From: Nitratiruptor sp.
GTDB lineage: Bacteria > Campylobacterota > Campylobacteria > Campylobacterales > Nitratiruptoraceae
Reading direction: 5' to 3'
Assembly (NCBI GenBank): GCA_015494535.1
Contig: WGBC01000038.1
Location: forward strand, 1 to 40,404
DNA length: 40,404 nt
In this document: piece by piece, positions 18,319 through 23,712 of the stretch
Position numbering within the stretch: position 1 is the first letter of the stretch
Layout: each line of letters opens with the position of its first letter
Notes under the pieces: model-generated
Databases searched by the model: none
What the model was told of the DNA's origin: nothing
What the model saw: only the letters and a program-made list of their open reading frames with translations
Made by a program: the position numbers and the translations under genes

Positions 18319-19818
<1,500 letters not shown>

Positions 19819-19827
19819 CTAAGCTCC

Positions 19828-21111
19828 TTATTTAATGTTGAATCCTCTCTCACCATGTACCGCTTCATCAAGTCCCATAACTTCAGTCTCTTCATCGACT
19901 CTACCACCACCAGTAAGGAGGCTAGATACGAAGTAGACGATTGCAGTCACAACGCCGGTGAAAATCATAGTAACCGCTACAGATTCAAGTTGCACGAGCA
20001 TCTGTGCTGCTCTGTCACCATGATCTTTGAGAGGGCTTCCATCCCAAGCAAGGTTTTGCAATGCAAAAAGACCGGTCGCCAACGCTCCCCAAAGACCTGC
20101 TAGGAAGTGTACGCCAAAGGCATCGAGGCTATCGTCGTATTTGAAAACTTTTTTGAGCCACGCAACGCCCCAGAAACCAAATACGCTACCGCCAATTCCA
20201 ATGATGAGAGCTCCCAAAACGTCCACGAAACCAGCCGCTGGAGTAATAGCAACAAGCCCAGCTACTGCACCAGTTGCCGCACCAAGAAGTGTTGGTTTTT
20301 TGTAGACGATCCATTCAATAAGTACCCAAGTAAGAGCGCCGATTGCGGCTGCGAAGTTCGTCATCAAAAGTGCGCTACCAGCTACGCCATCCGCTGCAAA
20401 TTCGCTTCCCGCGTTGAAGCCGAACCATCCAAACCATAGCAGCGCCGCACCAAGGGCTGTAAGGATAATAGAAGATGGGTGCATAGCCTCTTTTGGATAG
20501 CCTCTTCTTTTGCCAAGCATCAAAGCCATCACAAGCCCAGCAAGACCACCGTTCATATGGACAACCGTACCACCTGCAAAATCCAAAGCGCCGTCGTTGT
20601 ACAAGAATCCGCCGCCCCATACCATATGAGTAATCGGTACGTAGACAAATGTCACCCATAGCACGGTAAAGACTACCCACGTGGAGAACTTCATTCTCTC
20701 AATTACTGAGCCACTCGCAATCGCTACTGTAATAGCCGCGAACGTTCCTTGGAATGCGATAAAAACAAATTCAGGATATGTACCGCTTAGGCTATCTGCA
20801 GTGACGCCCTTGAGAAAGATCTTGCTCAAATCCCCAATAATTGCGCCGTCGCCGCTAAACGCCAAAGAGTAGCCCCAAAGTACCCATACGATCGAACCGA
20901 TTACATAAGCGATGAAAACCATCATATAGGTATTGAGTACATTTTTGGCTCTCGTCATACCGCCATAAAAAAGCGCTAGTCCTGCTGGCGTCATGAGCAT
21001 AACAAATGCCGTAGCCACAATCATCCATGCCGTATCACCGCTGTTAAGCTTATCCTCTGCTAGCGCAAGAGTCGGCAACAAGGCAAGTAGTGCCATCAAC
21101 CATTTTCTCAT
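19828..21111 (-). CDS. amt: ammonium transporter
   Basis: ALFYGGMTRAKNVLN, FAGGTVVHMNGGLAGLV, signal sequence. Confidence 0.96.
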   Translation of the reverse strand: MRKWLMALLALLPTLALAEDKLNSGDTAWMIVATAFVMLMTPAGLALFYGGMTRAKNVLNTYMMVFIAYVIGSIVWVLWGYSLAFSGDGAIIGDLSKIFLKGVTADSLSGTYPEFVFIAFQGTFAAITVAIASGSVIERMKFSTWVVFTVLWVTFVYVPITHMVWGGGFLYNDGALDFAGGTVVHMNGGLAGLVMALMLGKRRGYPKEAMHPSSIILTALGAALLWFGWFGFNAGSEFAADGVAGSALLMTNFAAAIGALTWVLIEWIVYKKPTLLGAATGAVAGLVAITPAAGFVDVLGALIIGIGGSVFGFWGVAWLKKVFKYDDSLDAFGVHFLAGLWGALATGLFALQNLAWDGSPLKDHGDRAAQMLVQLESVAVTMIFTGVVTAIVYFVSSLLTGGGRVDEETEVMGLDEAVHGERGFNIK

Positions 21112-21141: not shown

Positions 21142-21147
21142 ATTGTA
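21142..21147 (-). promoter_or_regulatory. candidate -10 (TACAAT) for amt-glnB
   Basis: TACAAT on minus strand about 30 bp upstream of the amt ATG. Confidence 0.4.
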
Positions 21148-21170: not shown

Positions 21171-21176
21171 TATAAT
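21171..21176 (+). promoter_or_regulatory. candidate -10 (TATAAT) for the degenerate activator gene
   Basis: TATAAT 23 bp upstream of ATG with AAGGAG SD. Confidence 0.5.
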
Positions 21177-21198: not shown

Positions 21199-21912
21199 AT
21201 GAAACGTTTTATAGCGAAGTCGCCACAAACCATCAAAGCCATGAACGTGATGCGCGTATCGGCGAATCTGCCGGTTAATATCATGATTATAGGTGAAATT
21301 GGTACGGGCAAAGAGACGCTGGTCAACACGGTGCTACCTACCATCGCAAAAGTCAACGCTAACGATATCAAAGAGATAGAGGCGGATATGAAGAGCCTTT
21401 TCATTCGCGATTTTGAAAATATCACCGATGTGATAGCTTTCATGAAAAAGCACGAGGATAAGAGAATCATTGCGGCTTCCACGGAGTATAGAAGCATCTA
21501 TGACGAGTTTTTTCCGGTTATTATTACCATCCCGCCACTCTCGCAGCGCCCAGAGGATCTCGAAACGCTGAAGCGCCTCTATATCCAAAGGGTCAAAGAG
21601 GAGTTTGAATTGGAGAGTTTTGACGAGGATTTTGAGATAGATTTGAGCAAGAATGCCTTGTCTTTGAAGCGATCCATTTACGAGAGGGCGCTTTTTGAAA
21701 TGATCGATGAGAAACGGATAATGAAACTTTTGGAGGAGTATTTGGTGGAAAAGGTGGAAATGGGGTATAAAGATCTGCTCTATCTTTTCGAGATACCGCT
21801 GCTTAGAGCCGCCAAGAGAAAATATAAAAGCGCGCTTGCCATGTCAAAAGCGCTGCAGCTCAATCGCGCTACGCTCACTACAAAGCTTAAAAAGTACGAG
21901 GCTAAAGTATAA
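21199..21912 (+). CDS. degenerate sigma-54-activator-like AAA+ protein with Fis-type HTH
   Basis: GEIGTGKETL, RIIAAST, IPPLSQRPEDLETL, C-terminal KSALAMSKALQLNRATLTTKLKKY; no GAFTGA, no receiver domain. Confidence 0.7.
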   Translation: MKRFIAKSPQTIKAMNVMRVSANLPVNIMIIGEIGTGKETLVNTVLPTIAKVNANDIKEIEADMKSLFIRDFENITDVIAFMKKHEDKRIIAASTEYRSIYDEFFPVIITIPPLSQRPEDLETLKRLYIQRVKEEFELESFDEDFEIDLSKNALSLKRSIYERALFEMIDEKRIMKLLEEYLVEKVEMGYKDLLYLFEIPLLRAAKRKYKSALAMSKALQLNRATLTTKLKKYEAKV

Positions 21913-22564
21913 AGGGTAACTCGATAACGAGGCTATCTTTTTCGAATGTGAGGATGAACTCCTCATCCTCTATACGCAGCTGCTCGATCTCTTTGCATTT
22001 GATGGTGATGATGACTACCTGATACTTCTTACCGTCTATCTTGATGCTTCTTCCTGTGGCGATACTCACTTTGATAAATATCTCCTCGCTGCTACGCAAT
22101 GCTTTAAAGATTTTGTTGAGCAGCTGCAAAAAGCGGTTGATGTTGAGCTTGAATTCGGGAATGGAAACGTCATATTCTGTGGTGAGTTTCGTCTTTTCAT
22201 CTAGATTGGTGGTGATGGCGATGTCCAAAAGGGTGAAAATATTTGCTGGTTGGAGATTTTCTTGGATAGTGTGCAGTTTTTTGCTACAGACGTTTTTGTG
22301 TAAAATCAACCCTATGCGATCGCTATCTTTGTAGCCTACGGTAATGGCGCAAAAGCTGGAGTGCCCTATATCAAAATGCAAAAAGGAGTGCTTGAAGCCA
22401 AAACTCATGGAGGCATGGGAGATGGCAAGGTTAAAAAGATCGTCTTTTTTGGATATTGAGAGGATATACTCCCCCTCTTTGTTGTACTCCAATATCTCAC
22501 CCTCGGAGTTGAACAGGATATAGGGGTTGAGGCTGTTTTCTATAAACTCTTTGTATAAATCCAT
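21902..22564 (-). CDS. PAS-like protein with vestigial histidine-kinase-like C-terminus
   Basis: NSLNPYILFNSEGEILEYNKEGEYIL PAS-like; no H-box or G-boxes seen. Confidence 0.55.
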   Translation of the reverse strand: MDLYKEFIENSLNPYILFNSEGEILEYNKEGEYILSISKKDDLFNLAISHASMSFGFKHSFLHFDIGHSSFCAITVGYKDSDRIGLILHKNVCSKKLHTIQENLQPANIFTLLDIAITTNLDEKTKLTTEYDVSIPEFKLNINRFLQLLNKIFKALRSSEEIFIKVSIATGRSIKIDGKKYQVVIITIKCKEIEQLRIEDEEFILTFEKDSLVIELPFIL

Positions 22565-22576
22565 AGCTACATTATA

Positions 22577-23044
22577 CTACACTTTTGCCCAACCGTGCAT
22601 CTTTTTTGCGCTCAATGCTAAGCCATCAGCGTACTCTATGGGGTTAATGGCGACGAAGTTGAGACTTTCGAGCAAAGTTATAAGCTCTTCGATGTCGTTT
22701 TGTTCGCAAAAGATTAAAATATCCGCAGCGTTTTTCATCATGCGGTAGTTTTTCCTTAGAAACTCCTCCAAATTTTGCAGTTTTTTCCAAGGGTAGTTGA
22801 CAAAAATGGTATCAAACTGCATGGAGCGAAGGTTGTAGCGCTCTTTATTTTCATCAAGCAGGCGCACTTTTGTACCAATCTCTTTTATCTCTTCATATAT
22901 TGGCTCCGTGAGGGCGGCAATTTCGAGGTAGTGTCCCTGCTGGTGGCAAAAGTTGGCCAAGCTTTGCGAGCTTTGTAAGCCATTGCTAAACTGAAAGACT
23001 CTCACGCCGGGTAGCTTTGGTATGACTACAAATAGCTCCTCCAT
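22577..23044 (-). CDS. putative methyltransferase-like conserved protein
   Basis: FDTIFVNYPWKKLQN motif-IV-like; start chosen at MEELF (ATG overlapping upstream TGA). Confidence 0.5.
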   Translation of the reverse strand: MEELFVVIPKLPGVRVFQFSNGLQSSQSLANFCHQQGHYLEIAALTEPIYEEIKEIGTKVRLLDENKERYNLRSMQFDTIFVNYPWKKLQNLEEFLRKNYRMMKNAADILIFCEQNDIEELITLLESLNFVAINPIEYADGLALSAKKMHGWAKV

Positions 23045-23712
23045 CACTCCTCCATCCAAATTATTGAGGCAAACCTGCCAGTTTTTTTGTCTCTTCTATA
23101 TGAGTAGTAATCGCTGCTGCAGCAGGTGCAAATATTGTAATCTCTTATAGATTCTACCCTATTTTGCTCAAGTTGCTCATAAATAATCGCTTTAATATCT
23201 AGATATCTGCCTCTTTTTATGAAACGATTGGGATATTGCGAAGCAAGTTCAAGGCTCACTTCATAGCAGCAGCTATGGATTCCAGGTGATATGATAGCCG
23301 ATATATTTGTTGCACCATAACGATTGCGCATAAGGTGCATAGCCTTTGCCACTATCTGCTTGGTAGCACCCATTCTGCCTGCATGAAGTGCCGCTATTAC
23401 TTTGGCATTATTATCATAGAGTAAAACCCCAAAGCAGTCTGCGCTCATAATCGCTAGAGGCAAAGAGAACTGTGTGGTGATGAGACCATCGCAAGAGGGC
23501 GGGACTATGAAATCATTTATCTCCACAATCATATCGCCATGGACTTGATTGGCAAATTGCGCATTTGTGATACCTGCTTTTTTATAGAGTATTTGGCGGT
23601 TGCGCTTCACGTCCAAAGCGCTATCGCCAACATGCATAGCGATATTGAGCCAGTTATAGGGAGGTTTGCTCACGCCTCCATAGCGATCGCTAATAAAATG
23701 TTTAATCCTCAT
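23044..23712 (-). CDS. pgeF: polyphenol oxidase / laccase-domain family protein (PgeF/YfiH)
   Basis: SADCFGVLLYDNNAKVIAALHAGRMGATKQI, ISPGIHSCCYEV. Confidence 0.9.
   Translation of the reverse strand: MRIKHFISDRYGGVSKPPYNWLNIAMHVGDSALDVKRNRQILYKKAGITNAQFANQVHGDMIVEINDFIVPPSCDGLITTQFSLPLAIMSADCFGVLLYDNNAKVIAALHAGRMGATKQIVAKAMHLMRNRYGATNISAIISPGIHSCCYEVSLELASQYPNRFIKRGRYLDIKAIIYEQLEQNRVESIRDYNICTCCSSDYYSYRRDKKTGRFASIIWMEE

Follow-up and report, generated by a model that had tools for sequence, protein, structure and literature searches.

A compact, degenerate NtrC-type protein and a PAS-GHKL partner as predicted sigma-70-based regulators of nitrogen assimilation in Campylobacterales

The results point to a 237-aa protein, here termed c0, as the DNA-binding member of a two-protein system for control of nitrogen assimilation that is independent of sigma-54 and conserved in Campylobacterales. 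c0 would activate its targets via sigma-70 promoters and be gated by a second protein, c1; we put the probability of this reading at roughly three in four. The c0 gene lies in the window (that is, the whole 40,404-nucleotide stretch of Nitratiruptor sp. DNA that was analysed), divergent from amt-glnB, as a preliminary description of the sequence had stated; the partner c1, the operator, the sigma-70 phasing and the nitrogen regulon were absent from that description. The reading builds on what was observed of protein anatomy, co-occurrence, operator, promoter phasing and regulon content. According to the proposed mechanism, a c0 dimer would bind a 19-bp palindrome through its Fis-type helix-turn-helix (HTH) at sites centred about −52 or −42 at amt, glnB and glnA and, in some genomes, at nitrate-transport and nitrite-reductase genes; c0 would activate RNA polymerase by contact, without a GAFTGA loop and probably without ATP hydrolysis; c0 of the window would, in addition, repress itself via a site over its own −10 element; c1, an NtrB/NifL-type PAS + GHKL pseudo-kinase, would gate c0 by direct binding, not by phosphotransfer; and c1 would most likely relay PII (GlnB), a PAS-bound signal, or both.

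Table 1. Features of the window that bear on the proposed c0-c1 system
Feature	Position	Strand	Basis
glnB, PII signal protein, predicted target in amt operon, candidate input to c1	19480..19818	-	ORF
amt, ammonium transporter, predicted target	19828..21111	-	ORF + operator
Predicted −10 element of amt, TACAAT; lies 20 bp from the end of the operator, whose centre is near −42	21142..21147	-	inferred from sequence
Predicted operator TTGTATAATTTTTGTACAA, genus variant of TTGATTAA-N3-TTAATCAA	21168..21186		sequence scans
Predicted c0 −10 element TATAAT inside operator	21171..21176	+	inferred from sequence
c0, compact degenerate NtrC-type AAA+ and C-terminal Fis-type HTH regulator	21199..21912	+	ORF, Pfam, AlphaFold, profile, PDB matches
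Fis-type HTH of c0, residues 187-234 (N222, R223, T225 invariant in 46 homologues)	21757..21900	+	Pfam + alignment
c1, PAS + degenerate NtrB-like GHKL domain, 220 aa, convergent with c0	21902..22564	-	AlphaFold, Foldseek, profile, alignment

The c0 protein has the anatomy of a sigma-54 activator in which enzymatic and sigma-54-contacting parts are missing. It contains the Walker A motif, the sensor-I-like strand, the PPLSQRPEDL segment and the C-terminal Fis-type HTH, typical of bEBPs, that the preliminary description had named. In Pfam, PF00158 matches residues 5-47, which corresponds to no more than positions 1-44 of the sigma-54-activator domain, while HTH_50 matches residues 187-234; hits to septin, FtsK and EF-Tu were set aside as weak, generic P-loop matches. 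An AlphaFold model computed with a 46-row alignment has a mean pLDDT of 94.1, and its best PDB matches are the AAA+ domains of sigma-54 activators (NtrC1, NtrX, NtrC4, ZraR and PspF), bearing out the AAA+ descent first proposed from motifs. Residues G32, G37, N152, Y190, S211, N222, R223 and T225 are invariant in the c0 family, and Walker A is conserved (G32 and G37 in 46/46 homologues, K38 in 43/46); Walker A being kept, ATP sensing by c0 is conceivable. A receiver domain with a phospho-Asp is absent from c0, the AAA+ domain beginning by residue 3 in both Pfam and AlphaFold. The 46 homologues do not conserve the DE pair of Walker B (residue 70 is E, K, R or T, among others, and residue 71 is D, N or H, among others); 'IRDFEN', considered as a catalytic Walker B, was rejected because its positions are variable across homologues. 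The arginine finger is likewise not kept: the window c0 has E103, and the position is E in 19, K in 10 and R in 9 of 46 homologues. A GAFTGA-like string occurs in none of the 46 homologues, and the c0 profile matches the solved Aquifex NtrC1 in two blocks flanking the L1 region; the blocks are separated by about 89 chain residues in NtrC1 vs. about 43 profile positions in c0, which indicates a deletion of roughly 45 residues including the L1 loop. The three absences proposed at the outset (GAFTGA, receiver and clear Walker B) are confirmed.

The loss of AAA+ catalytic motifs could also be read as the mark of a decaying, pseudogene-like relic without function; we consider the chance of this negligible, since 52 of the 60 genomes surveyed, from 18 families, have an open frame with invariant residues, a recurrence far above what chance would give. 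Named genera with homologues include Sulfurimonas, Sulfurovum, Sulfurospirillum, Sulfuricurvum and Hydrogenimonas. With c0 conserved across most of the order, the earlier label of 'relic' is misleading. Partial matches in sphingomonads (25-27% identity) were not counted as members. The AAA+ fold and activator-type Fis HTH would also suit an ordinary sigma-54 activator whose L1 loop is cryptic or displaced. Against this stand the deletion of the L1 region in all 46 members, the fixed spacing of operators to TATAAT elements described below, and the distribution of rpoN, which was not found in 29 of the 60 genomes surveyed, 25 of which carry c0; in those 25 genomes this explanation is already refuted, and overall we judge it very improbable. 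In the window's family, none of the 22 genomes has rpoN and all keep c0 (the window's own genome being 79% complete), a pattern that supports the sigma-54-independent DNA-binding role that had been suggested for c0. Nitratiruptor has been reported to have replaced its flagella, and RpoN and FlgRS to have been lost in Nitratiruptor and Arcobacter (PMC9321776); the window's family carries flagellins of a weaker-matching type, consistent with that replacement and loss.

The genomes that carry c0 share a candidate operator. In c0-positive genomes, a palindrome of the form TTGATTAA-N3-TTAATCAA is found 5′ of amt, glnB, glnA, nitrate-transporter and nitrite-reductase genes. This is the form seen in families outside the window's genus; the genus has the arm type TTGTATAA/TTGCTCAA, with TTGTATAA-AAA-TTATACAA in the amt-c0 intergenic region. 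Outside the genus, a match of at least 14/16 occurs in 31 of 58 amt/glnB/glnA upstream regions of c0-positive genomes vs. 2 of 698 other upstream regions, both of which are intergenic regions held in common with amt or glnB, and in none of 14 regions of c0-negative genomes. Counted by family, the operator is present in 13/16 c0-positive and 0/5 c0-negative families, genome relatedness being handled in these counts by family grouping alone. Near-perfect matches genome-wide also mark NarK-like transporters and nitrite reductases in c0-positive genomes; in c0-negative genomes they fall within genes or beside unrelated genes. A genus-wide scan places the palindrome also 5′ of glnB2-amt2 and glnA, with a matching site in every glnA upstream region obtained, mostly 70-90 bp before the start codon; the glnB2 promoters of the genus have a weak, poorly phased match. 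The strict TTGTATAAAAATTATACAA scan with 3 mismatches yields many chance hits, as its control columns show, and leads from it were limited to nitrogen genes or to at most 2 mismatches.

Two other accounts of the palindrome were rejected. Operators of FNR/Crp type have the form TTGAT-N4-ATCAA, and the spacing here is N9. Conservation merely as the −10 element of c0 is insufficient, the palindrome being present also in front of glnA and of amt genes that lie at a distance from c0. Separately, one genome (G036; L302 / L074) has a perfect operator that glnB shares with a divergent gene; the latter encodes a cysteine-rich protein of 115 aa resembling the catalytic subunit of ferredoxin-thioredoxin reductase.

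The operators are phased to promoters. A TATAAT-like hexamer, not used in choosing the sites, starts exactly 30 or 31 bp past the palindrome at 46 of 57 promoters, representing 15 of 16 families; the mean for other offsets is 1.6 of 57 promoters, and the 30/31-bp phasing is seen at 0/14 in c0-negative genomes. Within the window's genus, most sites are spaced by 20 bp (13 of 16 at amt, 8 of 12 at glnA) and three at each gene by 31 bp; the two spacings differ by one helical turn. The jump between them occurs within the genus at both amt and glnA (members such as G001, G003, G008 and G011 differing from the rest). These spacings predict an operator centred near −52 or −42 relative to a sigma-70 start site, a placement as expected of an activator acting from a fixed helix face.

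The position of the operator in the window raises the alternative that c0 is a repressor of nitrogen genes that is released under nitrogen limitation. There the operator covers the predicted −10 element of c0 itself, from which negative autoregulation of c0 is predicted, and such self-repression is plausible. At target genes, however, the sites lie at a fixed helical phase 5′ of the −10 element, with variants one turn apart, an arrangement typical of activation, and we regard repression of the regulon as improbable.

The geometry of the palindrome, taken with co-occurrence and adjacency, makes c0 the best candidate for its binder. Sites carry G(−7) and C(+7) in 44/45 cases and T(−8) and A(+8) in 45/45, giving a Fis-type site: that is, a 15-bp AT-rich core with G/C at ±7. 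In Fis, Arg85 contacts the guanines at ±7 of the site (PMC4784862). The c0 HTH has the corresponding N-R-x-T recognition helix, invariant in 46/46 members; unlike Fis, c0 carries an AAA+ domain and is predicted to act at few specific operators. Co-occurrence and adjacency point the same way. In about half of the genomes c0 and c1 are adjacent, often beside amt-glnB, as in the window's genus and other families (e.g. f7, f16 and f18), and in two families the operator is located between amt and c0. A distant family (f12; G032, loci L245 and L246) has TTGTATA-type operator arms like those of the window's genus, together with an altered recognition helix (NRITLRKKL), hinting at co-variation of operator and HTH.

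Since binding by c0 is inferred, a further alternative has to be weighed: the palindrome may be a real nitrogen operator bound by an unlinked Fis-type or other factor, with c0 and c1 acting elsewhere, for example in the cell envelope or fatty-acid synthesis (slyD-c0-fabD) or in sigma-70 control (rpoD-c1). The synteny that the preliminary description had proposed to compare lends this some weight: in about half of the genomes c0 is unlinked to the regulon and lies between slyD and fabD of an atp-tol-pal cluster, with c1 right after rpoD. Yet the operator, its phasing, c0 and c1 vanish together in five families; the linked pair adjoins amt-glnB, with the operator between amt and c0 in the two families noted above; the site geometry is of Fis type; and c0 is the only PF00158-type protein besides Clp ATPases found in the window's genome. 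We therefore regard binding by another factor as unlikely, and prefer c0 as the binder. The cluster around unlinked c0 (atpG-atpD-atpC-tolQ/R/A/B-pal-cpoB-slyD-c0-fabD-mtnN-ttcA) is conserved in about half of the families (e.g. loci L060 and L065), and c1 is directly 3′ of rpoD, the gene for the major sigma factor, in 16 of the 20 loci in which it is separated from c0 (L143-L160).

The partner c1 resembles a sensor kinase that lacks the parts required for phosphotransfer. It consists of a PAS domain and a C-terminal part folded like a histidine-kinase GHKL domain (AlphaFold pLDDT 88.7), with no DHp domain between them in the model; H-box and DxGxG box are absent from the alignment, and no histidine column is common to more than 8 of 20 c1 proteins. 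Foldseek searches return histidine kinases, with the NtrB (NRII) catalytic domain (1r62) as best stand-alone GHKL fold match (TM 0.57 on target) and NifL-NifA lower down. By sequence, c1 has two kinase matches with E < 1, both weak, to ZraS and NtrB, with which it has a YDxSxPE segment in common; the one to the NtrB catalytic domain has an E of 0.37, so that the assignment rests mainly on fold. c1 was detected in 51 of 60 genomes; the others are the 8 that are without c0 and one draft genome in which c0 is present (G020). The two are thus present or absent jointly in 59/60 genomes, also where unlinked, and this joint retention without linkage argues for joint function.

The genomic context of the pair fits an input from PII. 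Canonical GlnB and Amt are found in every c0-positive genome; among the c0-negative genomes, 5/8 lack canonical GlnB and 4/8 lack an intact Amt, and loss or change of GlnB or Amt in most of these genomes is as a PII input would have it. The link of GlnB to c0 and c1 consists of this co-occurrence and of adjacency. The regulon, comprising glnA, amt and glnB as in NtrB-NtrC systems, is that of a nitrogen-control system at the level of operator predictions.

Each part of the proposed system has known relatives. The GAFTGA-less NtrC of Caulobacter and Rhodobacter capsulatus acts at sigma-70 promoters (PMC10274813). c0 is like this unconventional NtrC in its NtrC-type AAA+ domain and Fis HTH, its loss of GAFTGA, a nitrogen regulon that includes glnA and, as predicted for c0, sigma-70 promoters; it differs in that the unconventional NtrC keeps a receiver and is phosphorylated by a true NtrB kinase, whereas c0 has no receiver and its partner is a pseudo-kinase, and in that NtrC of Caulobacter reportedly depends on binding and hydrolysing ATP, whereas c0 is without Walker B and has a much larger deletion (PMC10274813). 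The PAS-GHKL protein NifL of Azotobacter controls NifA by binding to it, no phosphotransfer being involved, and receives an input from PII (GlnK) (PMC9866876). c1 has the same domain make-up (PAS + GHKL) and would, in our proposal, bind c0 directly; its structure match to NifL-NifA (PDB 9qq6) is weak. NifL keeps its H-domain and nucleotide-binding motifs, whereas c1 has one PAS and no DHp, and NifA, unlike c0, is a full sigma-54 activator. Compared to NtrB, c1 is without DHp/H-box and without the DxGxG box. The known NtrBC-like pair of the phylum, FlgS-FlgR, controls flagella and needs RpoN, FlgR being a true sigma-54 activator, unlike c0 and c1.

A survey of proteobacterial regulons excluded the epsilonproteobacteria, orthologues of the target regulators, NtrC among them, being absent (PMC5343134), which left ammonium assimilation in these bacteria of vents, sediments and the gut without an assigned regulator. 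We lean, by a small measure, towards the broader proposal that catalytically dead NtrC and NtrB descendants provide order-wide, phosphorylation-free, sigma-70-based nitrogen control, PII-gated via the PAS-GHKL pseudo-kinase, and so fill the NtrC gap in Campylobacterota. We found no description of the c0-c1 pair, its operator or its regulon in the openly licensed literature. The parts are of known kinds; what we propose as new is the way they are combined, with nitrogen control via sigma-70 exerted by two partners that are both enzymatically dead. If true, this would show clearly how an enhancer-binding protein and its kinase can both shed their enzymatic parts and stay paired while exchanging sigma-54 promoters for sigma-70 promoters. 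The proposal can be tested directly on the pair, its operator and its regulon.

Two further observations concern c1. One genome with the c0-c1 pair encodes a second, divergent c1 paralogue (G052:C91:6102-6776, locus L162; E 3.7e-47). In the window, a 160-aa protein without significant Pfam match is encoded at 22577-23059 (-), and its position beside c1 is conserved in the genus.
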